Below, piece after piece: positions 2,578 through 27,921 of a stretch of 35,331 bases of DNA; position 1 is the stretch's first letter, and each line of letters starts with the position of its first letter. The translations under genes were made by a program, and so were the position numbers. Location: positions 1-35,331 of the forward strand of contig RPOO01000002.1 in the NCBI GenBank assembly GCA_003857025.1, written 5' to 3'. The notes beneath the pieces were generated by a model. The model did no database searches and was not told the DNA's origin. It saw nothing but the letters and a program-made list of their open reading frames with translations. This DNA is from Methanothrix sp. (GTDB taxonomy: Archaea; Halobacteriota; Methanosarcinia; Methanotrichales; Methanotrichaceae).

Positions 2578-5500
2578 TTATTTTTTCGCCAATGCCTTTT
2601 CCACCAGCCCCCTGCCCCGGTCCTTGAGATAGCTCTGCAAGACCTCCTGCACCATAACCATAAACTGCTCCTGGCTGTAGCTCAGCTTTGCCGCCAACCG
2701 CTCAACCATCGGCTCGACGTTCTTGACCTCATCGCTCTTGATGCTCCTTAAAACCACGGCGGCCAGAGCCATCAGGCGCAGGCCCTCCGGCATCTTATTC
2801 ATCTGCACGGCTAGAGCGCCGAGCTGGAAGAAGGCCCCCGCCTCGCCCGGCTTGTCGCAAAGGTCCTGGTAGACGTGCAGAGCGCCTCGGAAATTCTCCC
2901 AGGCGGCCTCTTTGTTGCCCCTCTGGGACTCGATCAGGCCGAGGTTGTGCAGAATGGCCGCCTCCCCCCGCAGCTCGCCAATCTCGCGCTTGAGTTGGAG
3001 GGCTTGCCGGAACTCCTCTACCGCAGGATCATAGTCACCCTTCTCGAAGTCGATGGAGGCCAGAGCATATTGCGCTTCGGCCATGCTCGGCCGGTCATCG
3101 ATACGACTCAGCAACGCCACGACCCGCGCCAGCCTGGTCCGGGCAGCCTCAAGGTTGCCGCGGTTGAAGTCGAGCATGGCCATGCTCTGCAGCGTAGAGG
3201 ACAGACTGCGCAGATCTCCCAGTTTCTCCAAGATATCGAGGGTTTTTTGCATCTTTTCCATGGCAGCGTCGTAGTCCTTCTGCAGCAAATCGATCGACGC
3301 AAGCCCCTGCAGCGCTGCCGCCACCCCGGCTGTATCGCCCTCGACGCGGCAGATCTCCTCAGCTTGGCAAAAGCTCTCACGTGCCTGCTCGTTCTTACCC
3401 TGGCGGAGAAGGAGCATGCCCAGGCCCTGAAGGGCAATTCTATCCGGACCGCTCTCCAGGGCGCGAGCGTACCATTCTGCAGCTTTGGAAAAATTGCCCA
3501 GCTCCATAAAGGCTTGCGCAATCCAGTTCATAGGCTCGGGATGCTTTTCCATTCCCAGGATCGGCAGGTTTTGCCGGATCACTTCCGCATAGTAGCCCCG
3601 CCGAACCAAATAGCTGCTGATGCGGCTCGTGACGGTTCTTGCATTCGGCGTGTCTCCAGCGGCAAGATAGTGCCCCCGCGCCTCCAGCAATGCATCTAAC
3701 CGAGAAAGCCCGAGCATTGATGCCTGTCCTTCTTCCGCCAGATCCCTCAGAAACACTGCTGCCGCCTTTTCCGCTGCGACTCGCTCCTCCGGCAACAGAG
3801 CCTCCAGGAAACCGGGCCGGAGGAAGGGCTGCACGCAGAGCAGCTTTCTCACAGGATAAGCCAGCATGAGCCGCTGCAATTTCCCAGCCAATTCATCAGC
3901 AGCACTCTCCGAGATCCCGGCTGCGGCCGCCAGGCCCGCAGAATTGACGGCTATTCCGAAAACCGCCGCCCGACCCAAGGAGAGACGCAAATCCGGGCCC
4001 AAGAGGGAGAGCCCTGCTTTCGGGATGTCGTCGCTGCTTTGAATTCCATCACCGATCCTGGCCGCTTGCGTGGCCGGAGCCAGGAGGCCGGGATTTCCCG
4101 CCGCCAGAGAATAAAGCTTGAAAAGCTCTTCGTAGCCGGTCTCGCCGCGGCGATACCGCTCAGTCACTGCCTCGTCCAGCAGCAGGAATTTGATAAATGC
4201 GCTCCCGGCCAGGCCCGACAGCGGCCACTCCCAGGCACGCTTGGGCAGTGTCAATGCATCGGCGGGAAGAGCCGAGCAGGTGATGATAGCCCGGCTGCTC
4301 TCCATTCCCTTCAGAGTCTGCAAATAGAACGCCGCCAGCTCTGCATCGTTGATGCGGCCAGTCTTCTCTTCCAGGCCCAGGCCGTCCCACAGGATCAGAT
4401 ATTTTCCCTCATTAAGCAATTTTTGCGCGCTCTTCAGCCTGTCCGCCAGGGGCGTTTTTGCGTCTCGCAGATCCTGTGCCTCCTTCGGCTTGCCGATCCT
4501 GGTCAAAAAGCCGATGACCGCCTCCAGGAATCGCGCTGCGCTCAAGGGATTATTTCGAGAGCTGTAGACGGGAATGATGGAATATCCGAAAAGAGCAAGC
4601 TGCCGGGCGAGCCTGGTGGCCAGAGCGCTTTTGCCCATGCCGCTCTTTCCTGTGATGACAATCGTGCGAGCCGCGCCGCTTTGCATAGCCGGAAGGAGAC
4701 GATGCAGATCCCGTCTTCGGTTCACGAAATTGAATGCATGTCCCTCTGCCATTCCCGGCAGAGGCTCCAGAACATTCCTGACAGTATCCCAATTTGTTGC
4801 GCCCCCCGGCGTCTTGTCGGCATCAAATATGCGTTGTTGATCTGTGGAAGAGTATAGAATCGGCAGGGCGCAGACTTTTCCTTCCTTGAGGCATGAATCC
4901 CGAGCATCTCGACGGGCCGTTCCCAGTGCCTCGCCAATGGACTTGCCCTGCGCCAGTGCTTCGTAGAATGCAGCCGCTGAGGCTGCTGAACCATTCCAGG
5001 CCACAGCCAGAGGCAGATGCTCCGCCGCGCTCATGGCCAGCAGATCAAGAGATTCTGGGTGATCATTCTGGCAGCCACCGAAAATGAGACACTGCACGCC
5101 GCACCCCTTCAAAGCTTCTGCCACTTCAGTTCCGGTCTTTGCATCCGACCGACCATCCTCGTCCTGCACGACAAAGAGCGCCTTGCCGCTCGAAATCTTT
5201 GCCAGCCCGACGAGATGAACCAGGTGTGGGCGAAAAGTTTTGGCATGCATTTTCAGCTCATCGAACGTGCCGAGGTCGCCGATCTGCAGGACTGCATCCC
5301 GGCCTTCCATCGTCCGCAAGAAGCCCTGCTCCTCCAGAGCATAATCAAGAGGCTCGCAGGCCACAAAGAGCACGCGTAAAGGCCCCGGCTCAAGCTTTGC
5401 GCTCTGGATTTGAGAGGCTGTCTGCGCCGCCTCGGCCATCGGACGGCGAACTATGCTGAACCTTTCGCTAAAACCGACCGCCTCACCGGCGAATTTTAGA

Positions 5501-5850
5501 TACTCCCAGGGGAGCTGCAAAGCATCGGGACTGGTAGACGCGACGATCAGGTCCCCGCCTGATGAGAGTCGGCCCTTGAAGTCCTGCCAACCCTTCTCGA
5601 AGAATAACTGGAAGAGCCCGTCACCCAGGATGGAGAGGTAGTCCTGCGCCTCCCTGACCGCGCAGCCTTTTCGGAAGAGCGAGGCATATTGCGCCGCCAT
5701 CTCCCGCACCTGCTGGGATTCGACCGGGGTCAATTGCCCTTCCGATACGACATCTTCACCAATCAAGATCCTGCAGGAAAAGGCCCTCGCCCCCGTGCCT
5801 CCCGCTTCGGAAATAGTGATCGCTATCCTCTGATCTAGCTTCTGACTCAT
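2578..5850 (-). CDS. CHAT-like domain / STAND-type NTPase / TPR-repeat protein
   Basis: N-terminal LQLPWEYLKFAGEAVGFSERFSIVRRP and C-proximal LAVAWNGSAASAAAFYEALAQGKSIGEALGTARRDA fit CHAT. Walker A is ITGKSGMGKSALATRLARQL. About 8 C-terminal TPR-like units follow (LQGLGMLLLRQGKNEQARESFCQAEEI... etc.). The ORF track gives 5892, but ATG at 5850 (MSQKLDQRIAI) follows a GGAGGAAT ribosome-binding motif and avoids overlap with the upstream gene. Confidence 0.85.
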   Translation of the reverse strand: MSQKLDQRIAITISEAGGTGARAFSCRILIGEDVVSEGQLTPVESQQVREMAAQYASLFRKGCAVREAQDYLSILGDGLFQLFFEKGWQDFKGRLSSGGDLIVASTSPDALQLPWEYLKFAGEAVGFSERFSIVRRPMAEAAQTASQIQSAKLEPGPLRVLFVACEPLDYALEEQGFLRTMEGRDAVLQIGDLGTFDELKMHAKTFRPHLVHLVGLAKISSGKALFVVQDEDGRSDAKTGTEVAEALKGCGVQCLIFGGCQNDHPESLDLLAMSAAEHLPLAVAWNGSAASAAAFYEALAQGKSIGEALGTARRDARDSCLKEGKVCALPILYSSTDQQRIFDADKTPGGATNWDTVRNVLEPLPGMAEGHAFNFVNRRRDLHRLLPAMQSGAARTIVITGKSGMGKSALATRLARQLALFGYSIIPVYSSRNNPLSAARFLEAVIGFLTRIGKPKEAQDLRDAKTPLADRLKSAQKLLNEGKYLILWDGLGLEEKTGRINDAELAAFYLQTLKGMESSRAIITCSALPADALTLPKRAWEWPLSGLAGSAFIKFLLLDEAVTERYRRGETGYEELFKLYSLAAGNPGLLAPATQAARIGDGIQSSDDIPKAGLSLLGPDLRLSLGRAAVFGIAVNSAGLAAAAGISESAADELAGKLQRLMLAYPVRKLLCVQPFLRPGFLEALLPEERVAAEKAAAVFLRDLAEEGQASMLGLSRLDALLEARGHYLAAGDTPNARTVTSRISSYLVRRGYYAEVIRQNLPILGMEKHPEPMNWIAQAFMELGNFSKAAEWYARALESGPDRIALQGLGMLLLRQGKNEQARESFCQAEEICRVEGDTAGVAAALQGLASIDLLQKDYDAAMEKMQKTLDILEKLGDLRSLSSTLQSMAMLDFNRGNLEAARTRLARVVALLSRIDDRPSMAEAQYALASIDFEKGDYDPAVEEFRQALQLKREIGELRGEAAILHNLGLIESQRGNKEAAWENFRGALHVYQDLCDKPGEAGAFFQLGALAVQMNKMPEGLRLMALAAVVLRSIKSDEVKNVEPMVERLAAKLSYSQEQFMVMVQEVLQSYLKDRGRGLVEKALAKK

Positions 5851-5854
5851 TTGT

Positions 5855-6784
5855 TTATTCCTCCTCCGTCCTTTTGCCGGTTTGACCATCATTCGATTTG
5901 CCGTTCAAATCACGGCTCAATTCGCAGTAATCCTTTGGCTCCATGTGCACTACCACATCCTCCACGCCCTCGACGGAGCCTTTGATCCGGTCTTCGACCT
6001 CTTCTGCAACTTTATGCGCCGCCTCAAGCGATAAAGACGAGTCCACGCCGATATGCAAATCCACATACATCTGCCCCGGCGCTCCCCTTGTTCGGATGCG
6101 GTGGCAGCTGCACACTCCCGGCACGGACATTGCCAGCTTTGCGATGACGTTCTCCTCGATCAAAGCTTTGTCCAGCAGTATCTTGGAGCTGTCTTTGATG
6201 ATCTCAAGGCCGGTCAGGATGATCAATCCGGTGATGAGCAAAGCAATGATGGGATCGGCCAGAGGGTAGCCCATCTTGACTGCCACCAGGCCGGCGATGA
6301 CCCCCACAGAAGCATAGACATCGCTGCGAGTATGCATGGAATCGGCCACCAGAATGCTGCTCTTCAGCCTCCTGCCAATGATGTACTCGTATGCGGCGAT
6401 GCCCACATTGATAGCAAGCGTCCCGCCCATGATGGCAAAGCTGATTTCATTGACCTCCGGCACAGCCGGATGGAGGACGCGATTGGTTGCAGCCATGACT
6501 ATCTGGAAGCAACTGGCGAAGAGAAGAACGGCAATCCCCAAAGACGCAAATGTCTCAAACTTGGAGTGTCCGTAAGGATGCTCCCGATCGGGGGGGCGCG
6601 AGGCCAGGGAGATGCCTACCAGGCCGATGATGTTGGAGCAGGAATCAAAGAGCGAGTGCAGCCCGTCCGAGGTCATTGACAGCGAGCCGGTATACAGCCC
6701 CCATCCGCCCTTTGCCAGAGCCACAAGTAAATTTAATATGAAGACAATTATAAGAATACGCCTGACCGTCGCGTAGTATGTCAT
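5855..6784 (-). CDS. cation diffusion facilitator (CDF) family transporter
   Basis: 309 aa; TSDGLHSLFDSCSNIIGLVGI, DREHPYGHSKFETFASLG, ADSMHTRSDVYASVGVIAG and a cytoplasmic ferredoxin-like C-terminal domain. Confidence 0.93.
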   Translation of the reverse strand: MTYYATVRRILIIVFILNLLVALAKGGWGLYTGSLSMTSDGLHSLFDSCSNIIGLVGISLASRPPDREHPYGHSKFETFASLGIAVLLFASCFQIVMAATNRVLHPAVPEVNEISFAIMGGTLAINVGIAAYEYIIGRRLKSSILVADSMHTRSDVYASVGVIAGLVAVKMGYPLADPIIALLITGLIILTGLEIIKDSSKILLDKALIEENVIAKLAMSVPGVCSCHRIRTRGAPGQMYVDLHIGVDSSLSLEAAHKVAEEVEDRIKGSVEGVEDVVVHMEPKDYCELSRDLNGKSNDGQTGKRTEEE

Positions 6785-8377: not shown

Positions 8378-8860
8378 TTAAACATCGAATAAACGAGTTT
8401 TCCGGCGTGCATCACAAGCGCATATCGCATTCCTTAACCCATTCCAATCGCAGTCATAATGCAAGGGCCAATATTTTCTCAGCATCTCGGCAAGTTCACC
8501 CATCTTCACCGGCTTGCTTACATAATCATCCATGCCGGCTTCAAGACACTTCTCCCGAAACCCCTGAAAGCCGCTGGCGGTTAATGCAATAATCTTAAGC
8601 CGCTCATTCGGCAGTCGTTGGCGGATAATTTTAGTAGCCGTCAGGCCGTCCATCCGAGGCATGCAGATGTTCATCAGGATTATGTCATACGACTGCCGCT
8701 CAAGGGCCAACAAGACTTCGAAACCGTTTGAAGCCGTATCTACAGAGCATCCCATATGCCTGAGCATTAGCTGCAAGACTTTCATATTTAATGCATCATC
8801 TTCTGCCAGCAAAATATGCAGCCCACTGACGCCAAAATTTCCAATCATTAAACCATACAA
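8378..8860 (-). CDS. stand-alone receiver (REC) domain protein, phosphoacceptor Asp replaced by Asn
   Basis: LLAEDDALNMKVLQLMLRHMGCSVDTASNGFEVLLALERQSYDIILMNICMPRMDGLTATKIIRQ...IIALTASGF...VSKPVKMGELAEMLRKYWPL: whole REC fold, with LMN in place of LMD. Confidence 0.9.
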   Translation of the reverse strand: MYGLMIGNFGVSGLHILLAEDDALNMKVLQLMLRHMGCSVDTASNGFEVLLALERQSYDIILMNICMPRMDGLTATKIIRQRLPNERLKIIALTASGFQGFREKCLEAGMDDYVSKPVKMGELAEMLRKYWPLHYDCDWNGLRNAICACDARRKTRLFDV

Positions 8861-9054
8861 CTGATAGTACTGAATTATATTTAAGCTTATTCACAAGAAA
8901 TTAATAACGAAATATATTATATTAGATATGCCAAATAATCAGTCAATCATAATTAAATAATTAAATAAGTTGGCAAAGATCGGAGCGATGCTTGATCCAA
9001 AAATGCTTGACTCGATGGTAGTGCGAACCATAAAAAATAATTAGTAATGAGATA

Positions 9055-12000
9055 CTAGCAACCGTTAGACCCTGGCCAATATCTATTCAATACTTCCTCC
9101 AGATCGCTTATCTTCACAGGTTTGCTGATATAATCATCCATGCCGCTATCCAGACATTTCTTCATATCGCCTTCCAGGGCAGAAGCTGTTATGGCTATCA
9201 CTTTGGGACCGTTATCCGGCCAGCGTTGGCGAATAATCCTCGTTGCATCCAGTCCGCCGATCTCGGGCATTCTGACATCCATGAGCACGATATCGTAATG
9301 CTGGCGACCGAGGGCTTGCAGGGCTTCTATTCCATTGGCAACGGGGTCCGCGCTGCAGCCCAGGCGCTTGAGCATTGCCATAACGACCTTTTGATTTGAT
9401 GAGTTGTCCTCGGCGAGCAGGATGCGTGGTGAATGAATCGATGGTGAATGAACCGATACATTCTCATCGGCACCACTAACCTGAGATGATCCTTCCATTG
9501 GCTTACCGGCGAAAAGATCGAGCAGTACCATGAATAATTGAGCCAGCTTGATGGGTTTGGTGAGAACGGCAGTGAATATATCCGGGGCCTCGCTCCGGCC
9601 CAGAGAGGCGAGCAGCACCAACGGCAGAGTAACGCTGATTTTTCGCATCTCCTCGGCCAACACTAATCCGTCGATATCGGCAATATCTCCATCAAGGATA
9701 GCCAAATCAAAGTCGTCCCCTCTCTGAATCCAACTGAGAGCATCCCGGCCCGAGGACGCGATCAGGGGCACCATTCCCCAGTAATATGTTTGAAGACCCA
9801 AGATATGACGGTTGGTTTTATTATTATCGACTATCAGCACATGCTTGCCCACAAGCTGAGGCTGAATGATATTCAAGAAGGGCTTCGCATCTGTTGGGGC
9901 TGCGAGAAGGTTGATGGTGAAATGGAATGTCGAGCCCTTTCCAAGAACGCTTTCCACCCAAATCCTGCCGCCCATCAGCTCCACGAGCTTCTTGCTTATG
10001 GCCAGCCCAAGACCTGTGCCCCCATAATTGCGTGTTGCAGAAGTCTCGACCTGGCTGAATGGTTTGAACAATTTCTCGTTATCTTCCGGAGAGATGCCGA
10101 TCCCTGTATCTTGAATTGCGAAATGAATCTCGTGTTTTTTGGAAAATGCCTTATCCGAGACTGCCTTTTCTGAGACGAAAAGTCTGATCTCGCCCTCCGA
10201 TGTGAATTTGACTGCATTATTCAACAAATTGACAAGTATCTGGCGCAATCTCGCCGGATCTCCTAATATATCGTCGGGAACGTTCTTATCAATTAAATAA
10301 ACAAGATTCAGTTTTTTCTCGTTGGCTTGAACCGCTACCAGGTCGATGGACTCTTCAATGCATCTGCGAATACTGAAAGGCTGCTCCTCCAGCACCGTTT
10401 TCTCCTGATCCATCTTCGAGAAATCCAGAATATCGTTTATTATGACCATGAGCGCATCGCCGCTCATCCTGATCGTCTCGATGAAGTCTCTTTGCTCTTC
10501 GTTCAATGCGTCACCATCGAGAAGCAGGCTGGTCATGCCGATTACCGCATTCATGGGAGTTCGGATTTCATGGCTCATGTTGGCCATAAACTCTGATTTG
10601 GCTTGAATTGCTGCATCTGCCAGTTCCTTGGCCTCGCGCAGAGCTTTTTCCGTCTTTTCATGCTCAACAATCTCCGCCTTCAGCCCGGCATTTGAGCATT
10701 CCAGCTCCACCTTCGCCCGATTCAACTCAGCGGTCCTCTCCTGGACACGCAGCTCAAGCTCATCCTTGGCCTTGCGGAGCGCTTCCTCGAAGTTTTTGCG
10801 CTCTGTGATGTCGACCACAGCGCCTGACGCGCGCCAGGGGTACAGGTTCCCGGCATCTGCATCTCCCGCGAATTCCGTGGTCCCGCGGACCCGCAGCCAT
10901 CGAACATGACCCTCGGAATGAACGATGCGATAGTCCATCTCCAAGACTCCGTTTCGATCACCGTAGGGATTATTGGCCGATGTCATGGCTGCCAGATAGG
11001 CCGGGCGGTCCGCGGGATGGACGGCTATCGGCACTCCATCCGCATCCAGAAGGAACGGTTCATTCGCCATCAAGCCGAAGAGCCTCTTGAGTTCAGGAGA
11101 CCAGTAGCTTTGGTTGGAAATGAAGTCGTGAGTGTAAGTGCCGACCTCGCCGTTTTCGGCTGCCAGACGCGCTCGCGCCTCGCTCTCGCGCAAAGCCTCC
11201 TCAGCCAGCTTCATCGGCGTCAAATCAACAGTGGCGATCCCGATGCCTGTAACTCTTCCCGCCACATCACGAATCGGCTCCAGGAAAACATCGAGAAACA
11301 TCGGCTTGCCGCTACGCATGAACCATATCTGCTCGCGAACCTCCGACTCAGTCTCAAGTACCCGGCGCTTTAGCTCAATCAAGTGCTCAGCTTCCTGCGG
11401 CTCGAACAGTTCCCTATCAGTCTTTCCCACAACCTCGACAGGGTTCACGGTCTTCTGGTTGTATGCCCAGAGGAAGCGAAGTTCCCTGTCCTGAGCGGCC
11501 ACCGAAACAGGCGCGTTCTGCAGAGATAATCTGAAGCGCTCCTCGCTCTCCCGCAAGGCCTCTTCGGCTCTGATGCGGCCAGTGGCGAGCGCGACCTGCT
11601 CCGCCACCGACTTCATCATCCCCAGATCTTCTTCGCTAAATGAACGGCGCGAACTGGTGCCGAAAGAAAGCGTGCCGATAACTTTGCCCTGATCCAGCAG
11701 CGGATAGCAGACATAAGCCTTGACGCCAAAGGATCTCACCAGCTCCGCCCTTGAGTCAAGAGTCTCTTGGATATTCTCGGCCACAATCCTGCAGCCCTGC
11801 TGAGCCACCAAGCCGCAGACGGCCTCGCCGTATTCCAGCCATTCAATCTCCCGGGCCTTTTCCTCCGGGATGCCTGCCCATGCATTCAGGTGAAGGCGCC
11901 CTTCCCGCTCATCAATGAGATAATTAAAAAAGACATGGCAGTCCAGGAATTTCATTACCTTCAGGCACAGATCCCTCACGATCCGCCGGGGCGTCTTGCT

Positions 12001-14799
12001 CTCGAGCAGTCGGCTGGCAGTGTAAGATATGATCTCGAGCCGCTCGTTGTTGCGGCAGAGCTGCTCTTCCGCTCTCTTGCGCTCGGTGATGTCGCGGAAG
12101 ACAAGCACGACTCCACTGATGCTTCCGTCCCGGTTCTTTATGGGCGCTCCGCTATCATCGATTGGAACTTCTAAGCCGTCTCTTCTTATAAGGATGGTAT
12201 GATTGGCAAGACCGACAATTGCTCCCTTTTCCAGCACTTTGGCGATGGGATCGGCGACCTCGGCTCTCGTGTACTCATTGATGATATCAAAAACAAGTTT
12301 AGCCGGCTGCATCTTTGCTTCTTGAAGAGTCCATCCCGTCAGCTCTTCTGCCACGTGGTTCATGAAGGTGACCTTACCGTCATTATCGGTTGCAATGACT
12401 GCATCACCAATGCTGGCCAGCGTAGTGGCAAAGCGTTGCTCGCTCTTTCGCAAATCCTCTTCGGCCAGGAGATGGAGCCGCTCATCATCGAGAGCGCCCA
12501 GAGCATAGGATATATCTGCGCTCAGAGATTCCAGCAGTTCGACATGCTCGGCATCGAAGGCTTTGGGTTCAAGGGCATAGATTGTGAGAGCGCCGACCAC
12601 ACTTTCCCGGCAGCGCAAGGGAAATGAGGCCGAAGCACGGAACCCATAACGCAAAGCCGCTTTACGCCAGGGGAGTGTGGCCGAATTGGAGTCAAAGTCG
12701 TCATTGGTTACAGCCTTTTCCTCGCGAATGCAGGTGCCCGTCGGACCGCTGCCAAACTCGCCATCAACCTCGATTCGAATCCCTTTGAGATAGTCAACCG
12801 CCTGGCCCGCACAGGCCACAGGAAACACTCGCCTGCCTTCCACTTGCCCAATCCACACCAGCGGAAAAGAGCCAATTTCCGCCACAACCCGGCAGACATC
12901 GGAATACAGCGACTCAACATCCTGTTTTCGCACTATGATCTCATTCACCCGGCTGAGCACTGCGTAGAGGCGGGTGAGCTTAGAGAGCCGTTCCTCCTGG
13001 CGCTTTCGCTCCGTGATGTCGATGCATATTCCGATCATCCGGACGGGGCGGTCATGATCGTAAATTCCTCTTCCAAGGGCGTTTATCCAGCGCACGCTGC
13101 CATCGGGCCTGACAATGCGGTAAATGCTATCAAGTCCCGTATGCTCCGTTATTGCCTGCTTGATCCTCGAATTGGCTCCGTCTCTATCTTCAGGATGCAG
13201 AACGCTATTCCACACATGGAAAGATGCGGCATTGCTCTTTGGATCGATGCCGAACACCTCAAACAGCTCCGGGGACCACGCGATACTATTGTCTATTACA
13301 TTCCAATCCCAAGTCCCGGCCCCAGCTCCCTGCAAAGCCGTCTCTAAGCGCTCATTCACTTGCCGCAGCGCGTCTTTCATCCTCTTGGATTCGGTCATAT
13401 CGCTATAGGTAACGACTACGCCGTACCCATCCAGGGAGAGCGGTTCTGCGGTTACATTGATCCAGGTAACATCATCACTGCTCTTGACTATTCCCATCTC
13501 GATGTTCTCGACGCGCTTTTTTTCTTCAAGGGCACGCACGCTGGCAAACTCTTCGGGCGGCATGGGCGTGCCGTCCGGGCGAATGATCATCCATTCTGCG
13601 CCGTCGATCTCTCGGCTCGTATGCTCCTGCAAAGGAACGCCAAGAAGCCTCACTGCTTCTTTATTAGCTTCCAGAATCCGGCCATCCTGATCGGAGACTG
13701 TGATCCCAAGAGGAAATGAATCAAAAAGGGCGGAATATTTCAGCAGATTGATGCGCAATTCCTCATCCTTTCTCTTGCGCTCGGTGGTGTCCATGAAAAT
13801 AACTGCGAACTGAAGAGGCATAGAGCGATAGGCAAACACCTGATAATGTTTGCCCAGCGCCGGAGAATAGTGCTCAAATTGGGTCGGCTCGCCGGTCAAT
13901 GCCACGGCACCGTAAGCCTTCACCCACAGCGGGCTATCTCCGGGCAGTACCTCATTGTGTGTCCTGCCGATCAAGTCTGTGCGCTTCAATCCCGTGAGAC
14001 GCTCAAATGCAGGGTTGACATCGAGGAATCGAAAGTCGACCGGCTCGCCCGATTCATCGCAGATGATCTCGTGAAGTGCGAAGCCTTCCGTCATTGCATT
14101 GAAGAGATCTCGATAGCGCAGCTCGCTCTCTTGCAGCGTGGCACTGGTTCTCTCGACAAGCTCGTGAAACTCTTCCTCGCGCTTTTGCAGCGTTTGCTCC
14201 ATCCTTTTATTAGTGGAGTTCTCGATGATCTGCCAAACACCTGAGCGTTTGATCAGGGCTAACTGATGGTTGGCGACGACGTCCAGAATCTCCGGTGCCC
14301 GGCATTCCGGAAGGGAATATGTGCAGAGGGCCATCATACGAAAGCGGCCGATAGCGTTGTTGATGGCTGCTTCATATTCAGCGAAGTTCTTCCAATCGTC
14401 TTTCTCCGGCCAAAAGATGTTTGCAGAGATCCTCATGCCGGCATATCCTCGCTGCAACGCCGCCTCAAGCTTATTCACCCATCCCCCGAACACTTCATTC
14501 GCGGAGAATTCCCAGGATCGCGGGTACCCACGACTGCAATCAAGGATCTCGATCTGGCCTTTTTCAATGTAATCGTCCAGGTCGGGAACTGCTGAACGCA
14601 GGGCATTGATGGCCGAATCGACCTGCAAAGGAGCCGAGGTTATCCACATGCAAAATTCGCCGGCCTTCAACCCCTCCCGAAAATAGGGTACGAGAGTCTC
14701 GATCAGATCCTGGCTGGTATAGTAAAATTGGCAAAAATGCGTCCCCCAGGGAATTACACCTACAATATCGATTCCCGATTGCCTCGTGGCAGCATCCAT
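9055..14799 (-). CDS. giant hybrid sensor histidine kinase: MEDS-PAS/GAF array-HisKA-HATPase-REC-REC
   Basis: 1914 aa. MEDS-like N-terminus (GVIPWGTHFCQFYYTSQDLIETLVPYFREGLKAGEFCMWITS). Multiple PAS/PAC units (ITERKR motifs) and two GAF-like segments. H-box FMANMSHEIRTPMNAVIGM, N-box LRQILVNLLNNAVKFT, G1 DTGIGIS, G2 GGTGLGLAIS. Two C-terminal receivers (LAILDGDIADIDG; DIVLMDVRMPEIGG). Confidence 0.95.
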   Translation of the reverse strand: MDAATRQSGIDIVGVIPWGTHFCQFYYTSQDLIETLVPYFREGLKAGEFCMWITSAPLQVDSAINALRSAVPDLDDYIEKGQIEILDCSRGYPRSWEFSANEVFGGWVNKLEAALQRGYAGMRISANIFWPEKDDWKNFAEYEAAINNAIGRFRMMALCTYSLPECRAPEILDVVANHQLALIKRSGVWQIIENSTNKRMEQTLQKREEEFHELVERTSATLQESELRYRDLFNAMTEGFALHEIICDESGEPVDFRFLDVNPAFERLTGLKRTDLIGRTHNEVLPGDSPLWVKAYGAVALTGEPTQFEHYSPALGKHYQVFAYRSMPLQFAVIFMDTTERKRKDEELRINLLKYSALFDSFPLGITVSDQDGRILEANKEAVRLLGVPLQEHTSREIDGAEWMIIRPDGTPMPPEEFASVRALEEKKRVENIEMGIVKSSDDVTWINVTAEPLSLDGYGVVVTYSDMTESKRMKDALRQVNERLETALQGAGAGTWDWNVIDNSIAWSPELFEVFGIDPKSNAASFHVWNSVLHPEDRDGANSRIKQAITEHTGLDSIYRIVRPDGSVRWINALGRGIYDHDRPVRMIGICIDITERKRQEERLSKLTRLYAVLSRVNEIIVRKQDVESLYSDVCRVVAEIGSFPLVWIGQVEGRRVFPVACAGQAVDYLKGIRIEVDGEFGSGPTGTCIREEKAVTNDDFDSNSATLPWRKAALRYGFRASASFPLRCRESVVGALTIYALEPKAFDAEHVELLESLSADISYALGALDDERLHLLAEEDLRKSEQRFATTLASIGDAVIATDNDGKVTFMNHVAEELTGWTLQEAKMQPAKLVFDIINEYTRAEVADPIAKVLEKGAIVGLANHTILIRRDGLEVPIDDSGAPIKNRDGSISGVVLVFRDITERKRAEEQLCRNNERLEIISYTASRLLESKTPRRIVRDLCLKVMKFLDCHVFFNYLIDEREGRLHLNAWAGIPEEKAREIEWLEYGEAVCGLVAQQGCRIVAENIQETLDSRAELVRSFGVKAYVCYPLLDQGKVIGTLSFGTSSRRSFSEEDLGMMKSVAEQVALATGRIRAEEALRESEERFRLSLQNAPVSVAAQDRELRFLWAYNQKTVNPVEVVGKTDRELFEPQEAEHLIELKRRVLETESEVREQIWFMRSGKPMFLDVFLEPIRDVAGRVTGIGIATVDLTPMKLAEEALRESEARARLAAENGEVGTYTHDFISNQSYWSPELKRLFGLMANEPFLLDADGVPIAVHPADRPAYLAAMTSANNPYGDRNGVLEMDYRIVHSEGHVRWLRVRGTTEFAGDADAGNLYPWRASGAVVDITERKNFEEALRKAKDELELRVQERTAELNRAKVELECSNAGLKAEIVEHEKTEKALREAKELADAAIQAKSEFMANMSHEIRTPMNAVIGMTSLLLDGDALNEEQRDFIETIRMSGDALMVIINDILDFSKMDQEKTVLEEQPFSIRRCIEESIDLVAVQANEKKLNLVYLIDKNVPDDILGDPARLRQILVNLLNNAVKFTSEGEIRLFVSEKAVSDKAFSKKHEIHFAIQDTGIGISPEDNEKLFKPFSQVETSATRNYGGTGLGLAISKKLVELMGGRIWVESVLGKGSTFHFTINLLAAPTDAKPFLNIIQPQLVGKHVLIVDNNKTNRHILGLQTYYWGMVPLIASSGRDALSWIQRGDDFDLAILDGDIADIDGLVLAEEMRKISVTLPLVLLASLGRSEAPDIFTAVLTKPIKLAQLFMVLLDLFAGKPMEGSSQVSGADENVSVHSPSIHSPRILLAEDNSSNQKVVMAMLKRLGCSADPVANGIEALQALGRQHYDIVLMDVRMPEIGGLDATRIIRQRWPDNGPKVIAITASALEGDMKKCLDSGMDDYISKPVKISDLEEVLNRYWPGSNGC
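9080..10600 (-). repeat. paralogous kinase/receiver cassette, copy A (HisKA-HATPase-REC-REC), approximate limits
   Basis: Long stretches of high nucleotide similarity to about 14950-16460, e.g. CTTCACAGGTTTGCTGATATA...TTTCTTCATATCGCCTTCCAGGGC and TCGAGCCCTTTCCAAGAACGCTTTCCACCCAAATCCTGCCGCCCATCAGCTCCACGAGCTTCTT. Limits by eye. Confidence 0.75.
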
Positions 14800-14925: not shown

Positions 14926-17892
14926 TCACTCTTTAAATGCGGGCCGATATTTGTTCAATACTTCTTCCAGATCGCTCATCTTCACAGGTTTGCTGATATA
15001 GCCGTCCATACCGCTATCCAAACATTTCTTCATATCGCCTTCCAGGGCGTAGGCAGTTATCGCTATCACCTTCGGCCCATTTTCAGGCCAGCGCTCACGA
15101 ATGATCTTCGTGGCATCCAGGCCGCCGATCTCAGGCATTCTGACATCCATAAGGACGATATCATAATGCTGACGACCAAGGGCTTGCAGGGCTTCTATTC
15201 CATTGGCGACGGGATCGGCTCTGTAGCCCAGGCGCTTGAGCATCGCCATAACAACCTTTTGGTTTGATGTGTTGTCCTCAGCAAGAAGGATGCGCGGCGA
15301 ATGGACCGATGCATTTGCGTTATCATCATTTGCGTCACGATCACTTGCATCATCATCACTTGCATGAGAAGATCCTCCATCCGGCTTCTTGGCAAATAAC
15401 TCAAGCAGGACGACATACAATTGAGCGAGCTTTATCGGTTTAACGAGAACTGCGGTAAAAATATCAGAGGTCTCGCTATAGTCCAAGGAGGTGAGAAGCA
15501 CCAACGGCAAAGCCCTATTGAATTCTCGCATCTCCTTGGCCAACAACAATCCATCGTCATCCTCTATGCTGCCATCAAGGATAACCAGATCAAAGTCGTC
15601 ACCCCTCTTAATCCAGCTAAGAGCATCTCGGCCCGAAGATGCAATCAAAGGCACCATACCCCAAGAATATGCTTGAAGACCCAGGATATGCCGGTTGATT
15701 TTATTATTATCGACTATCAGCACGTGCTTGCCCACAAGCTGAGGCTGAATAATATTCATGAAAGGCTTCGCATCGTTCAAAGCTGCGAGCGTGTTTATGG
15801 TGAAATGGAATGTCGAGCCCTTTCCAAGAACGCTTTCCACCCAAATCCTGCCGCCCATCAGCTCCACGAGCTTCTTACTTATGGCCAGCCCGAGGCCCGT
15901 CCCCCCATAATTTCGTGTTGTGGAAGTCTCGACCTGGCTGAAGGGTTTGAACAATTTTTCAATATTGTCTGCAGAAATGCCGATCCCCGTATCTTGAATT
16001 GCGAAATGAATCTCGTGATTTTTGGAAATATCCGTGCAAGAGACGGAAAGCTTGACATCTCCCTTATTGGTGAATTTGCTTGCGTTATTCAACAGGTTAA
16101 TGAGTACCTGACGCAGCCTCGCCGGGTCTCCTAATATTGTCTCCGGGACGTTTTCATCGATTACATAGGACAGATTCAGCCGTTTCTCTTTAGCCTGAAC
16201 GGCCACCAGGTCGATGGACTCTTCAATGCAGTTGCGAAGACTGAAAGGCTGCTCCTCCAGCACGGTCCTTTGCCGGTCCATCTTCGAGAAGTCGAGGATA
16301 TCGTTTATTATGACCATGAGCGCATCGCCGCTCGTTCTGATCGTCTCGATGAAGTCCCTATGCTCAAGTGCCAGGTTTTCATCATCTAAGAGAAGAGAGG
16401 TCATGCCTATGACCGCATTCATGGGCGTGCGGATCTCATGGCTCATGTTGGCCATGAAATCGGATTTGGCCAAAACCGCAGCCTCTGCGGCATCTTTGGC
16501 CGCCCTTAACTCCGCCTCGGCCTGTTTGCGGGCGGTCACGTCTCTGCCCAGGGATAAAACGGCGGGATAGCTTTCAAAAACAATAGGAGTCGATGCAACT
16601 TCGGCTTCGACGATTCTGCCATCCATCCGGATAAATTTGTACTCTGCCGTCTCACTTATCTCATTCATTTCCAAAATCTTATTTATCCGATCCCGGGCCA
16701 TTTCCTTGTGATCTTCATGGACAAAATGCAGGATAGATCGGCCCAGGAATTCTTCTCGATTTGATCCCCCAAGAAGTTTTACCAGTGCATCATTAGCGAA
16801 AAGGATCTTGTCGCTCTTTAGAACGCAGATGGCATCAGGAGACAGCTCCACAAGCCGCCTGTACTGCGCCTCACTCTTCTGCAGAGCTTTGTTGATCTTC
16901 TCGAGATCGGCAGTCCTCTCCAAAACCTTCAGCTCCAACTCATCTTTCGCCTGTCTTAGAGCCTCTTCCGCTTTTTTGCGCTCCGATATGTCGCGGATAA
17001 TGCTCAAAAGGACGCGCTTACCTTCGATTATTGTTCCAATGGAGCTGACCTCCACCGGAAAGACGCTGCCATCTTTGCACATGTGATAGGTTTCGAAGAG
17101 CAGACCTCTGGCATCGGCGAGCTGCATTTGCATAAATGCGCTCTCTTTGGCATCACGAGGCCTCAAATCAAGGATGTTCTTGGAAAGCAGCTCATCACGA
17201 GTATATCCGTAGGCTTTTATTGCAGCCTCATTGGCCTCGATTATGCTGCCGTCTCTGCTCATATGGAATATGATGTCACGAGCATGTTTGGATATAAGCT
17301 GATAGCGGTTTAATATCGACTCGGCTTTCTTGCTCTCCGTTATATCGACTATGGCAATCCGGCATTCTCTCTCGCCCGGTGGTAAATCAGACGTGGCCGT
17401 GCCGACAATTCGGGCATAGATAATCGGCACTCCATCCCGCAAGAGGCTTAATTCGCAAGTTTGCCTGACGGAGGTCTCAAATGTCTTCTTGCGGAAATCA
17501 TCAAAAGAGGCACGATCTTTGAGCGCAACAAACTTCGAAAAGCTCCTGTTCGTCAGATTGCGCCTCTCTACTCCGAGAAGCGTGGCTCCCGCCAGGTTGA
17601 CCTCCAGAATAATCCCCTGCTCATTCAGATTGAATAGGCCGATAGGCGCAAAATCGTAGAGGTCGGAGTACTTCGCCAGAGCATCTTCCGCTTCCAGCTT
17701 GGTGCGCTTCAGCTCCTCGTTTTGCATCTCCAGCTCAATCTGGTGAACCTGCAGTTCATGGACCAGAGCCAGAGCGTCTTTGCTCCCCTCAACTGCAAAG
17801 CCGCCAGCATTGTCTTTGCGGTACTTCAGGCGCTCCTCCGCCTGACGGCGCAGATCTCTTCCGGGATTCGTTTCAGTTCGTTCTTTTTTCAT
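14926..17892 (-). CDS. hybrid sensor histidine kinase: PAS(x3)-HisKA-HATPase-REC-REC
   Basis: 988 aa; PAS segments (LYDFAPIGLFNLNEQG; HARDIIFHMSRDGSIIEANEA; VELSPDAICVLKSDKILFAND), H-box MSHEIRTPMNAVIGM, DTGIGIS, GGTGLGLAIS, two receivers (LVILDGSIEDDDG; DIVLMDVRMPEIGG). Confidence 0.95.
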   Translation of the reverse strand: MKKERTETNPGRDLRRQAEERLKYRKDNAGGFAVEGSKDALALVHELQVHQIELEMQNEELKRTKLEAEDALAKYSDLYDFAPIGLFNLNEQGIILEVNLAGATLLGVERRNLTNRSFSKFVALKDRASFDDFRKKTFETSVRQTCELSLLRDGVPIIYARIVGTATSDLPPGERECRIAIVDITESKKAESILNRYQLISKHARDIIFHMSRDGSIIEANEAAIKAYGYTRDELLSKNILDLRPRDAKESAFMQMQLADARGLLFETYHMCKDGSVFPVEVSSIGTIIEGKRVLLSIIRDISERKKAEEALRQAKDELELKVLERTADLEKINKALQKSEAQYRRLVELSPDAICVLKSDKILFANDALVKLLGGSNREEFLGRSILHFVHEDHKEMARDRINKILEMNEISETAEYKFIRMDGRIVEAEVASTPIVFESYPAVLSLGRDVTARKQAEAELRAAKDAAEAAVLAKSDFMANMSHEIRTPMNAVIGMTSLLLDDENLALEHRDFIETIRTSGDALMVIINDILDFSKMDRQRTVLEEQPFSLRNCIEESIDLVAVQAKEKRLNLSYVIDENVPETILGDPARLRQVLINLLNNASKFTNKGDVKLSVSCTDISKNHEIHFAIQDTGIGISADNIEKLFKPFSQVETSTTRNYGGTGLGLAISKKLVELMGGRIWVESVLGKGSTFHFTINTLAALNDAKPFMNIIQPQLVGKHVLIVDNNKINRHILGLQAYSWGMVPLIASSGRDALSWIKRGDDFDLVILDGSIEDDDGLLLAKEMREFNRALPLVLLTSLDYSETSDIFTAVLVKPIKLAQLYVVLLELFAKKPDGGSSHASDDDASDRDANDDNANASVHSPRILLAEDNTSNQKVVMAMLKRLGYRADPVANGIEALQALGRQHYDIVLMDVRMPEIGGLDATKIIRERWPENGPKVIAITAYALEGDMKKCLDSGMDGYISKPVKMSDLEEVLNKYRPAFKE
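14950..16460 (-). repeat. paralogous kinase/receiver cassette, copy B, approximate limits
   Basis: Direct-repeat partner of about 9080-10600; same order and near-identical protein sequence. Confidence 0.75.
15310..15367 (-). repeat. low-complexity in-frame repeat encoding an Asp/Asn/Ala/Ser inter-receiver linker
   Basis: Plus strand GCATTTGCGTTATCATCATTTGCGTCACGATCACTTGCATCATCATCACTTGCATGA; encodes SHASDDDASDRDANDDNANAS between REC1 and REC2. Confidence 0.8.
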
Positions 17893-20800
17893 GGCCCTGC
17901 CCCGTTGGCAGTTTGGGACTGCTCTTTTCGGTCAGTGATATCTTCTATGGCGAGGAGGATCAGTTGCTTGCGGGAACTTTCCTGCACAATTCGTCGTGCA
18001 TTGAGAAGCATTCTCCTCTTGCCTATGCCCGGAAACTCATGTTCCACCAGGAAGCTCTCGATCTGAGTGTTTTGAGGAAGGATATCTACCAGAAGCTGCC
18101 TCAGGGCAGGAGCGTTCCACTGTCCGCTCCCCAGATCATAAAGAATCTTTCCTTCGGTCTCCTCGGACGTCAAGTGGAATGTCCGATAAAATGATTGATT
18201 GGCAGAGAGAATTTTCATATCGCCGTTCAGCACCAGCAGAGGTTCACGAACCGTGCGAATGATGCCCTCTGCGTATTCGGTGCGCTCTGCCATGCTTTCC
18301 GCCATCCTTCTGAAATCGGTGATATTTGAGAAGGTCATCACAACGCCATCGATGACATTATCGACCGTTCGATAGGGAATGATGCGCATCATATACCAGT
18401 CCCCATCTTTGGTCTGCAGCTGAGACTCCTTGAACACGAGAGTCTGAAGTACCTCATTTACGTCTCTGGCAAGATCCTCTTGCCGAAGATTGGAGACGAT
18501 GTCTGTGAGAGGACGTCCAATATCGCCCTGAATCAGGCTGACGATCTTGGTTGCCTGCGAAGTAAAACGCCTGATCTTCAAGTCGTTGTCCAGAAATATG
18601 GTGGGAACTTGCATGCTGTTGAGGAGGTTTTTCATGTCATTGTTGACTTCCGAGAGCTGCTCATTCTTGGACTGCAGTTCGGCATTGAGAGTTGTCAGCT
18701 CCTCATTTAGGGATTGCATCTCCTCTTTGGAGGTAATCATCTCCTCGTTAGTGCTCTGCAGCTCCTCATTGGTAGATTGCAACTCCTCATTGGCGGATTT
18801 AAGCTCCTCCTGAGAGGTCTCCATCTCTTCGAGGACCGTCTGCAGGTGTTCCTTCGTGTACTGCAGTTCCTTCCCCAGCTCATCGTTCAAAGCCTTCATG
18901 CGGGAAGAGGACACCGATCTTCCCTTGGCGGGCATAACGTTTTCGCTTTGAGCTGCAACATCCTCAAACTGAACCATCATGAGCCCTCGCATGGCCTCCG
19001 GCTCGTTGAAGGGGCTGACGGTGAGGTTGACGATCTGTTCCAATCCGTTGGATTTGACCTTCAAGCCCTGCAAAGTTATCTTCGTCTTCTCGGTAATCGC
19101 TTTGCGAATGGCGATTCCAAGCTCTGCTTTCAAGCCCTCGCGGGCCATGGCGTAGATATTCATGTTCGCTTTTCCGACAGGCGGCTCCAGATACGTTCCC
19201 GTCCGCCGGGTGAAGTAAAGGATGTCCCCCTTTTCATTGATGAGCACGACCGGAGGAGCGATGGTCTGCAAAATGAGCGTCTGGGCAATCTCGGTGACGC
19301 TGGCACCGGAGAATTTTTGCGCACTGACAACGTCCTGGAGGCGGGCTCCGTAGGGCAGAGGCGACGTGGGAAATTCCACAAATGTTTTGCGGGCGATGGG
19401 AGCTTCCCTGCGCTCGAAGATCTTCCGCTTGTTGTCCAGGGGAAGGAAAAGGTCGTTGAAGCCTCCGATGGACTCGGAAGAGCCGAGGAAGAGAATGCCC
19501 CCCGGATCAAGAGAATAATGGAAGATGGGCATCAGCACTTTTTGCGTCTCGGAGTTCAAGTAAATGAGAAGGTTGCGGCAACTGAGCATATCCAGTCTGG
19601 TGAATGGCGGGTCCGTGAGAACGTTCTGCTGGGCAAAGACTATCATCTCCCGGATCTCGCTTCTGATGCGGTAGCCGCCGTTATCTTCTTTTATAAAAAA
19701 ACGCTGCAAACGCTCAGGCGACACATCCTGGGCAATGCTGAGAGGGTAATTTCCCTGGCGGGCGAAGTCAATGGCCTCTTTATCTATGTCCGTGGCATAG
19801 ATTTGGATCTTAAATTTACCCGCCAGCCCATGATCATCCAGGTATTCTCTGAGAAGAATGGCAATGGAGTATGCCTCCTCGCCGGTGGAGCAACCGACCA
19901 CCCAGATGCGCAAAGTGTCTCCGGTGTTCTTGCTCTCGAGCAACTTTGAGACGGCTTTATCCTTCAGGGCGACAAAAGAATCCTGTTCCCTGAAAAAGCT
20001 GGTAACGCCGATCAGGAACTCTTTGAAGAGCAAATCGATCTCATTTGAATTTTCCTGAAGATAGCGAAGGTACTGATTTATATTACTAATTTGATGAACG
20101 CTCATTCGCCTTTCTATACGGCGGTTGACGGTGTTCTTCTTGTAGAGGCTGAAATCATTTCCGGTTTGTGCCCGCAGAAGGGCGAATATCTTGTTCATTG
20201 CGCCGTTAACCTTCTTTTCCGCAGGAGGCTGTCCACTGGTTAAATTGAAAAAGTGATTCACATAGCTGAGCAGCTTTTCCGGCAGATCCTGCACAGGAGC
20301 GATAAAATCGGCAAGCTCGGTATTGATGGCGCTGTAGGGCATTCCGTTGTATTTCGCCGAGCTTGGTTCTTGCACCATCACCATGCCCATCCGCTCTTTG
20401 ATGGCCTTCAGGCCCAAAGAGCCGTCCGATCCCATTCCGGATAGGATGATCGCGATGCTCTTTTCTTTCTGATCATCGGCCAGATGCCTGAAGAAAAAAT
20501 CGATGGGTGTCCGAAATCCCCGGGGCATGGACGGCTCCAGCAACTGAAGGGCTCCATGCATGATGGACATGTCCTTGTTCGGAGGAATCACATAGACACA
20601 GTTCGGTTGAACTCTCGTTCCGTCTTTGGCTTGAACCACCTTCATGCTCGTGATGCGCCCAAGAAGTTCAGGCATGAGGCCCTTGTGAGTAGGATCGAGA
20701 TGGGTAACAAGTACAAAGGCCATTCCCGTGTCTGCGGGCATGTTTCGGAAGAATTGCTCAAAAGCTTCCAGAGAGCCGGCTGACCCGCCCATTCCTACAA

Positions 20801-20942
20801 CGTATCTGGGTTTCTTTTCGTAGCTTTTGATGGACGCACTATCTTTATGCAAAGAGTCTTTGTGCAGAGAATCGTTATGCGAAGAATCAGAGACGGTTTT
20901 GAGGGCGCTATTGATTTTCGAGTCTTTGGCATTTGGTTTCAT
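17889..20942 (-). CDS. CheB methylesterase - CheR methyltransferase - coiled coil - PAS fusion protein
   Basis: 1017 aa; CheB core without receiver (GMGGSAGSLEAFEQFFRNMP, LVTHLDPTHKGLMPELLGR, ILSGMGSDGSLGLKAIKE); CheR (RRIERRMSVHQI, GVTSFFREQDSF, VVGCSTGEEAYSIAILL, CRNLLIYLNSETQKVL); heptad coiled coil; PAS domains. Stop codon overlaps the next gene's ATG (ATGA). Confidence 0.95.
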   Translation of the reverse strand: MKPNAKDSKINSALKTVSDSSHNDSLHKDSLHKDSASIKSYEKKPRYVVGMGGSAGSLEAFEQFFRNMPADTGMAFVLVTHLDPTHKGLMPELLGRITSMKVVQAKDGTRVQPNCVYVIPPNKDMSIMHGALQLLEPSMPRGFRTPIDFFFRHLADDQKEKSIAIILSGMGSDGSLGLKAIKERMGMVMVQEPSSAKYNGMPYSAINTELADFIAPVQDLPEKLLSYVNHFFNLTSGQPPAEKKVNGAMNKIFALLRAQTGNDFSLYKKNTVNRRIERRMSVHQISNINQYLRYLQENSNEIDLLFKEFLIGVTSFFREQDSFVALKDKAVSKLLESKNTGDTLRIWVVGCSTGEEAYSIAILLREYLDDHGLAGKFKIQIYATDIDKEAIDFARQGNYPLSIAQDVSPERLQRFFIKEDNGGYRIRSEIREMIVFAQQNVLTDPPFTRLDMLSCRNLLIYLNSETQKVLMPIFHYSLDPGGILFLGSSESIGGFNDLFLPLDNKRKIFERREAPIARKTFVEFPTSPLPYGARLQDVVSAQKFSGASVTEIAQTLILQTIAPPVVLINEKGDILYFTRRTGTYLEPPVGKANMNIYAMAREGLKAELGIAIRKAITEKTKITLQGLKVKSNGLEQIVNLTVSPFNEPEAMRGLMMVQFEDVAAQSENVMPAKGRSVSSSRMKALNDELGKELQYTKEHLQTVLEEMETSQEELKSANEELQSTNEELQSTNEEMITSKEEMQSLNEELTTLNAELQSKNEQLSEVNNDMKNLLNSMQVPTIFLDNDLKIRRFTSQATKIVSLIQGDIGRPLTDIVSNLRQEDLARDVNEVLQTLVFKESQLQTKDGDWYMMRIIPYRTVDNVIDGVVMTFSNITDFRRMAESMAERTEYAEGIIRTVREPLLVLNGDMKILSANQSFYRTFHLTSEETEGKILYDLGSGQWNAPALRQLLVDILPQNTQIESFLVEHEFPGIGKRRMLLNARRIVQESSRKQLILLAIEDITDRKEQSQTANGAGP

Positions 20943-22482: not shown

Positions 22483-24477
22483 CTATGCATTTTGGTGCTT
22501 GCCGAGCATTTCCGCCAGTTCTTCCATCTTAACGGGTTTGCTGATATAGTCATCCATGCCCGCTGCAAGGCATTGCTCCCGGTCGCCCTTGAGAGCATAT
22601 GCAGTAACGGCGATGATCTTCAATTTGCCGTCCCAACGCTGGCGGATCACTCGGGTGGCTTCCAGGCCGTCCATCTCAGGCATCCGAACATCCATTAGCA
22701 CCACATCAAAATGTTCGCTTTCCAGCGCCTGCAAAGCCTCTCGTCCGTTGGAAACGGCTTTCGCCGGATATCCCAGGCGCTTGAGCATCATGAGGATTAC
22801 CTTTTGGTTCGATAAATTGTCTTCCGCCAGGAGCACACGCATGCTGCCGGGCCTTGCGCTTTCCAGATGATTTGGCGTGCCGTAACTTGGAAGGATCGGC
22901 CCGGAAAATACCGACGAAATAGAATTGAACAGATCGGCCTGTCGAATGGGCTTGGCTAAAGTTGAGGCAAAAAGATCCGAGTCGATCCGCTGTCCGGCAA
23001 ACGTCATAGCCACAAGAGGCAAGCTCTTGTCGGCTTTTCTTATCTCCTTGGCTGCTGCTAAGCCAAGATTTTGAGATATGCCCGCATCTAATAGAGCAAT
23101 ATCAAACGGCTCAACAGCGTTGAGCAATCCGGATGCATCGCCGTTCCCGGCAGCGGCCACCGGGATCATGCCCCACTCTATTGCCTGGGCGGTCAGGAAA
23201 TCGCGAATGGTTTTGCTGCCGTCCAGGATGAGAATTCGCTTTCCGTCCAGAGGCAATTGCACTCCCGTCAGAGGTGAGATGTTGGGCACGTGCTTCGTCT
23301 TGATGGTGAAATGGATAGTGGACCCTTCGCCCATCTTGCTCTCCGCCCAAATTCTGCCGCTCATCAGCTCGACCAGTCCTTTGCTTTCGACAAGATCCCG
23401 GTAAATCTCTTTGCTCTTGTTTGCCGCCCTGGTCTTGACGGCGGAATCGAAGAGGTGATCAATCTCATCCGCAGGGATGCCGGGAGCTGTATCTTTGACC
23501 TGGAAATGAATCTCAAACAGAGGATCGGAACGAACTGATGAAACGAATAGCACGACCTCTCCTTTGCGAGTGTTATTTATGGCATGGTCCAGCAGGCTAA
23601 CCAGGATCTGTTTGAGCTTTTTCGGGTCGCCGATGATCACATTCGGCGAGATTTTATCCATGACGTATGCCAGATTCAGCCTCTTTGCCGCCGCTTTTTC
23701 GGCAAACGACTGCAACGCATCCTCGATAGAGCCGCGCAAGTTGAAGGTTTGAATCTCAAGGCCCGTATTCTCCCGCTCGATCTTCGAGAAGTCGAGGATA
23801 TCATTGACAACGGCCATCAGAGCATCGGCGGATATTCGGATGGTCTCCACGAAATCTTTCTGCTCCGGGGTGATATTGTCATTGAGGAGCAGGCTGGTCA
23901 TGCCGACTATCGCATTCATGGGCATGCGAATCTCATAGCTCATATCGGCCATCAGCTTCTTGTACGTTTTTAAGATTTCAATTACACTTTTTTCATCTTT
24001 TATGCGATATCTCTTTTGCCGTCCAACTTTTTCATGTGACAGCACATCGCGATCTTCCAAAATATTGATATATTTGGATGCAGTGGAAGGGCTCATGGAC
24101 AGCCGCTGTGCAATCTGGGAAAATGTGGAGCCGGGGGATTCTATCAGCACCAGAATTATGTCTCGAAAACGCTTCTGTTGAAGCAGTGGAGCCAATGCCT
24201 TTTCCTCGGGCTTGAGCTTGCCGGAGACAAAATATATCTTCAAATTGTTCTGCTTCTGGCTGACGATCAATCCGCTTTTCTCTAAATGATCAAGATGATA
24301 TCTCAATGTGCTCAGACGTATATCAAGCTCCCTTGCGATCTTCCTGAGATGAGAGCCGGGATAGCTCGATACGTAATCGAAGATCTGTTCCCGGTTCTCG
24401 GAAGCTGCATCGTCTTGCATATCGCATCGGTCTAATGCGCTCAAAGGATATCTATCTTCCTTTTCTAAATCAAGCAT
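22483..24477 (-). CDS. tandem winged-helix DNA-binding domain fused to degenerate HisKA/HATPase and two receivers
   Basis: Two HTH segments (HLRKIARELDIRLSTLRYHLDHLEKSGLI; TFSQIAQRLSMSPSTASKYINILEDRDVL) followed by MADMSYEIRMPMNAIVGMTSLL (H to Y), KLKQILVSLLDHAINNT, VKDTAPGIPADEI, no GGTGLGLAIS motif, then REC (FDIALLDAGISQNLG) and REC (FDVVLMDVRMPEMDG). Confidence 0.9.
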   Translation of the reverse strand: MLDLEKEDRYPLSALDRCDMQDDAASENREQIFDYVSSYPGSHLRKIARELDIRLSTLRYHLDHLEKSGLIVSQKQNNLKIYFVSGKLKPEEKALAPLLQQKRFRDIILVLIESPGSTFSQIAQRLSMSPSTASKYINILEDRDVLSHEKVGRQKRYRIKDEKSVIEILKTYKKLMADMSYEIRMPMNAIVGMTSLLLNDNITPEQKDFVETIRISADALMAVVNDILDFSKIERENTGLEIQTFNLRGSIEDALQSFAEKAAAKRLNLAYVMDKISPNVIIGDPKKLKQILVSLLDHAINNTRKGEVVLFVSSVRSDPLFEIHFQVKDTAPGIPADEIDHLFDSAVKTRAANKSKEIYRDLVESKGLVELMSGRIWAESKMGEGSTIHFTIKTKHVPNISPLTGVQLPLDGKRILILDGSKTIRDFLTAQAIEWGMIPVAAAGNGDASGLLNAVEPFDIALLDAGISQNLGLAAAKEIRKADKSLPLVAMTFAGQRIDSDLFASTLAKPIRQADLFNSISSVFSGPILPSYGTPNHLESARPGSMRVLLAEDNLSNQKVILMMLKRLGYPAKAVSNGREALQALESEHFDVVLMDVRMPEMDGLEATRVIRQRWDGKLKIIAVTAYALKGDREQCLAAGMDDYISKPVKMEELAEMLGKHQNA

Positions 24478-27864: not shown

Positions 27865-27921
27865 CCGATTTCACCACATCTTCCGCTTTTCGCCCAAGAA
27901 TACTGTCGGCCTTCCCCGTCC

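Follow-up and report, generated by a model that had tools for sequence, protein, structure and literature searches.

A Stand-Alone Archaeal Receiver with Asparagine at the Phosphoacceptor Position and Its Asn-Bearing Relatives in Five Further Methanothrix Species

Overview

A stand-alone receiver encoded on a Methanothrix contig carries asparagine at the position of the phosphoacceptor aspartate, and the same substitution is found in stand-alone receivers of five further species of the genus. We give slightly better than an even chance to the reading, drawn from sequence comparison and structure prediction, that it is a maintained stand-alone aspartate-less receiver (ALR), derived from a hybrid kinase's C-terminal receiver and serving as a putative interaction adaptor that works independently of phosphorylation. 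The window, by which we mean the whole stretch of DNA that was analysed (35,331 nucleotides), is the entire contig C16 of a draft genome of 3.16 Mb in 379 contigs. Two features define the case:

8378-8860, minus strand: stand-alone Asn receiver (aspartate-less receiver), identified by its ORF and translation, PF00072, AlphaFold2 and relatives in five species
8669-8671, minus strand: AAC codon for Asn64 at the phosphoacceptor position, identified from the sequence and an alignment of receivers

A Receiver Fold with an Otherwise Complete Pocket

Read from a TTG at 8860, the open reading frame encodes 160 amino acids, though translation may well begin at the in-frame ATG at 8848 instead. Pfam finds a single domain in the protein, PF00072, at residues 16-127 (E 3.5e-28, 110 of 111 profile positions), and AlphaFold2 predicts the five-stranded (beta-alpha)5 receiver fold with a pLDDT around 90 over the domain. 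The top PDB matches are receivers, the first of them the hybrid-kinase receiver PA1611. Beyond about residue 131 lies a tail of low AlphaFold2 confidence outside the receiver domain, so that the protein, with its one Pfam domain, is a receiver alone and has no output domain.

When 55 receivers are aligned, 49 carry Asp in the acceptor column and six carry Asn; these six are the stand-alone Asn proteins and no others. The first-pass annotation had described a stand-alone receiver with Asn for the phosphoacceptor Asp, an intact acidic pair, Thr and Lys, and a fold that was conserved while the acceptor was lost; this description stands in every part, given the AAC codon within a PF00072 match, the presence of E20, D21, T94 and K116 in the alignment, and a predicted receiver fold with Asn64. 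The window protein also has Ala at T+1, Pro at D+4, Gly at D+8 and an aromatic residue at K-3. With a residue other than Asp at the aligned phosphoacceptor position it is an ALR by sequence, and for want of a phosphorylatable Asp it falls outside the stand-alone CheY-like response regulators that take phosphate.

The Thr, the Lys, the T+1 Ala, the D+4 Pro and the first acid are retained in all six Asn receivers; in that of G024 the second acid is lost too (AENN), and the remaining pocket residues are retained in five of the six species. Other positions set the group apart from its Asp-bearing counterparts. The residue that follows the acidic pair, position 22, is Asp in five of the six Asn receivers, whereas 48 of the 49 Asp receivers have Asn there; Q26, present in 45 of the 49, is absent from all six, as is D101, which is present in 47 of the 49. 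At position 22 (8797-8795 in the window) it looks as if Asp and Asn had exchanged places within the pocket region.

A pocket kept this fully raises the possibility that the protein is a latent receiver, in which Asn deamidates to Asp in its own active site and thereby provides a slow switch-on, or a timer of protein age. The retention of all the other pocket residues in five of the six species would suit such a role, as would a remark in Maule et al. (2015, PMC4395418), which cites Wolanin et al. (2003), that Asn at the acceptor site can quickly revert to Asp. However, the loss of the second acid in G024 means that metal binding would be impaired there, and the deamidation-prone pairs N-G and N-S are not found at the site, the residue after Asn being Ile or Leu. 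We consider this reading very unlikely.

Asn Receivers Elsewhere in the Genus and Class

Five further stand-alone Asn receivers were found within the 26-species genus, in the genomes designated G009, G012, G017, G021 and G024. All six proteins use AAC for the Asn, and they are about 160-195 amino acids in size. A plain best-hit search suggests that the genus holds no ortholog, because paralogous kinase receivers score higher; a DNA motif for the Asn form exposed these relatives. In the 26 genomes the motif M-N-x-x-M-P-x-x-D-G has five matches (the window, G009, G012, G021 and G024), as against 257 for the form with Asp, a figure summed over a per-genome table; the G017 protein escapes the motif because it ends in N-G and not D-G.

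Searches beyond this set gave no further members. No Asn receiver with the exact motif was found outside the genus in 238 genomes of the class, where a match in L137 was rejected as located in another protein and one in L136 as lying in no ORF of at least 100 amino acids. The G021 protein, searched against 50 genomes of the family, brought up no additional member, and a search of the genome contigs turned up no relative nearer than 41%.

The first-pass annotation had proposed that conservation of Asn in orthologs be checked, and had named two findings that would count against its view: Asp at this position in orthologs from close relatives together with relaxed selection on this copy, and a sequencing error at 8669-8671. 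The relatives keep Asn, not Asp, in all five species. As to an error of sequencing or assembly, the contig does belong to a draft genome and the change amounts to a single G-to-A, but the same AAC stands at the same position in stand-alone receivers of five other assemblies, and an error is for practical purposes excluded because these share the codon.

Gene Neighbourhoods and the Question of a Decoy

In the window the Asn receiver is preceded, on the same strand, by an intergenic gap and a set of signalling genes, which in order of transcription are CheB-CheR-PAS, the PAS hybrid kinase, the MEDS-PAS-GAF hybrid kinase, the gap and the Asn receiver:

8861-9054, minus strand: A+T-rich intergenic stretch of 194 bases, 27% G+C, with TATA-like AT runs, identified from composition and sequence
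9055-14799, minus strand: upstream hybrid histidine kinase of 1914 amino acids with MEDS, several PAS and GAF domains, HisKA, HATPase and two receivers, identified by ORF, Pfam and alignment
14926-17892, minus strand: hybrid histidine kinase of 988 amino acids with PAS, HisKA, HATPase and two receivers, H-box intact, identified by ORF, Pfam and alignment
17889-20942, minus strand: CheB-CheR-PAS fusion of 1017 amino acids, sharing 4 bases with the start of the kinase, identified by Pfam, genus search and loci
22483-24477, minus strand: HTH protein with a degenerate hybrid kinase, last receiver intact, identified by Pfam and alignment with a G024 homolog

The stretch at 8861-9054 is possibly the Asn receiver's own putative promoter. 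In the alignment the H-box of the 1914-residue kinase is intact as well (MSHEIRTPMN). The HTH protein is a candidate for the cluster's output regulator. It has Tyr in place of the H-box His (MSYEIRMPMN) and degenerate ATP-binding motifs, while its G024 homolog (L067:8191-10218) shows the same His-to-Tyr change with the ATP motifs intact; the window protein looks like a transcription regulator made from a dead kinase. Elsewhere in the window, 2578-5892 on the minus strand encodes 1104 amino acids that seem to open with a CHAT-type region, continue with an NTPase (GKSGMGKSALA) and close with TPR-like repeats; 26447-28842 on the minus strand holds a substrate-binding protein, a permease and an ATPase that, judged by eye, resemble a tungstate or molybdate ABC transporter, and these putative transporter genes are followed by a DNA-binding gene at 25879-26337.

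Part of this arrangement recurs. G012 and G021 have the Asn receiver immediately upstream of CheB-CheR-PAS and a PAS hybrid kinase on the same strand, so that a place next to CheB-CheR-PAS and a hybrid kinase is common to these two genomes and the window. Homologs of CheB-CheR-PAS occur in four genomes, all four of which have the Asn receiver, compared with six of 26 overall (hypergeometric P 0.001, a value that ignores kinship and genome incompleteness), and we regard the link as solid enough to base experiments on. Further CheB-CheR loci, the second in their genomes, in G000 (L110:4200-7400), G021 (L113:2606-5149) and G012 (L114:8627-11236) adjoin a hybrid kinase with a VLMDCQMP receiver and have no Asn receiver alongside.

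The Asn receiver can nevertheless persist without the CheB-CheR-PAS and hybrid-kinase pair. In G017 its neighbours are a hydrolase of the MBL fold and a small lipoprotein, with no adjacent kinase and no CheB-CheR; in G009, a genome without a CheB-CheR protein, it stands between the MBL gene and the end of the contig; in G024 it adjoins the lipoprotein gene. In G014, G015, G016 and G019 the hydrolase adjoins the lipoprotein with no receiver in between, and no Asn receiver lies beside the MBL gene of G000. The window copy is located differently from the other five, its neighbours not including the MBL hydrolase and lipoprotein. In G024 (L066:8511-11753) the place held by the MBL hydrolase in other species is taken, two ORFs upstream from the Asn receiver, by a serine-recombinase-like gene, possibly a sign of insertion or rearrangement.

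A role as a decoy or titrator of the adjacent kinases had been suggested at the outset. The receiver would dock on the DHp/H-box region of the hybrid kinases and block transfer to the true receivers, and for want of Asp it could not itself be discharged; binding competition has been proposed in the literature for pseudo-receivers (PMC12632262). The position of the gene right after two kinases whose H-boxes are intact, its homology to the receivers of those kinases and the recurrence of the kinase and CheB-CheR pair beside it in G012 and G021 all speak for such a role. Against it stands the face on which docking would depend: the exposed positions of helix 1 (alpha-1) are the usual kinase-docking face of receivers in other systems. 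At these positions all six Asn proteins depart from the receivers of the kinases themselves and match the Asp-receiver consensus at only two to three of eight, compared with three to eight of eight in Asp receivers and four of eight in the window's own two kinases. Because the docking face is defined from outside knowledge this is modest evidence, but it weighs against a simple decoy of the adjacent kinases and in favour of some other partner. Taken with the presence of the receiver in G017, without an adjacent kinase or a CheB-CheR protein, and in G009, without the latter, it leads us to hold a decoy to be unlikely; an adaptor in a constitutive state appears to be the candidate that fits better.

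Descent and Maintenance

For the tree of 55 receivers the acceptor column was masked, and very long rows, which had attracted the window copy, were left out. The five other Asn receivers form one clade (support 100/98), and in the best tree the window copy joins them, with support of 62/20. It is the most diverged of the set, at 42-48% identity to the others, and its branch (0.61) is the longest among the Asn proteins. Grouping it instead with the window's own two kinase receivers or with the wider kinase group is not rejected by AU tests (p 0.11 and 0.18). A common origin of all six is likely, and is favoured because D22, N64 and the losses at positions 26 and 101 are shared, but orthology of the window copy with the other five is weakly supported, and the copy may have a separate origin, since it is both the most diverged and located elsewhere. 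Under either origin the nearest relatives are C-terminal receivers of hybrid kinases from the same type of cluster.

Pairwise dN/dS among the five other copies is 0.18-0.31 at dS 0.55-1.6, which indicates that they are maintained proteins under purifying selection. For the window copy against the others dS is saturated (pS 0.73-0.84, pN 0.35-0.38), so selection on it can be inferred only over most of its history, and this copy may have begun to decay recently. It could then be argued that the window copy is non-functional or decaying, its Asn being a step in that decay and independent of the Asn receivers of other species, as its separate location, long branch, weak grouping with the others and unrejected local origin would allow. 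However, its frame is intact and its pocket complete, in codon use it falls between a random choice of synonyms and a neighbouring kinase (about 2.4 SD above random), pN is 0.35-0.38 against a saturated pS, and with all or most of the other five it shares the Asn, D22 and the absence of Q26 and D101. Decay is, we believe, quite unlikely, and maintenance of the window copy as an adaptor remains the reading that we prefer.

How the Protein May Act

As an adaptor, the Asn receiver would take up no phosphate and would be held in one fixed conformational state. It would act by binding a protein, which might be another kinase or might belong to the same signalling set as a receiver or a regulator, and its activity would be set by its own amount or by the state of its partner and not by its own phosphorylation. 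Protein-protein interaction is one of the working modes proposed for pseudo-receivers (Bourret et al. 2025, PMC12632262). Since the pocket is more fully kept than is usual among these, the Asn receiver could still bind something or still react. A more specific proposal is an archaeal receiver locked by the change from D to N, the rest of whose pocket is under selection, and which is either a fixed-state subunit of the CheB-CheR/hybrid-kinase set or is released by deamidation; we think this improbable.

Relation to Known Systems

Asn makes up 16% of ALR substitutions (Maule et al. 2015, PMC4395418), and ALRs are up to 10% of archaeal receivers by the same account, or 10-15% by a figure cited within PMC12632262. 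About 40% of archaeal response regulators consist of a receiver alone, and Methanothrix soehngenii has eight kinases, every one of them hybrid (PMC5847659). The MEDS domains, archaeal-type HTH domains and many hybrid kinases found here would suit a methanogen close to Methanothrix (Methanosaeta). ALRs are thus a sizeable share of archaeal receivers, yet reviewers in 2025 were aware of no published study of the function of archaeal pseudo-receivers (PsRs; Bourret et al., PMC12632262). The present family is small and well bounded, with six species, a single domain and candidate partner genes adjacent in three genomes, and therefore the role of a receiver without phosphate is directly testable with purified proteins.

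Each part of the system is of a known kind, although the conserved archaeal lineage of Asn receivers appears to be undescribed. RitR, an ALR of the Asn subclass (PMC4395418), likewise has Asn for the acceptor Asp and retains the fold, but its pocket residues are changed (Lys10, Asp81) and its output binds DNA, whereas the window protein keeps Thr, Lys and the acidic pair and has no output domain. Pseudo-receivers share with it the want of a residue needed for phosphotransfer (PMC12632262); in most bacterial PsRs DD2 is missing, and many are without T, K, T+1 or the D+4 Pro, all of which the window protein retains. FilR2 of Methanosaeta harundinacea (PMC3991700) is, like the window protein, a methanogen stand-alone receiver encoded beside a histidine kinase, but it is phosphorylated by FilI whereas the window protein has no acceptor, a distinction drawn from its published description. 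The CmrRST system of C. difficile, as outlined in PMC12632262, offers in CmrT a comparable case of a receiver without key residues, encoded together with a kinase and receiver set that is normal in other respects; CmrT is presented there as an OmpR-family response regulator with an output domain, whereas the window protein has a single domain. The notable point in the present case is the clean loss of the acceptor alone, in a stand-alone protein that is conserved across species.
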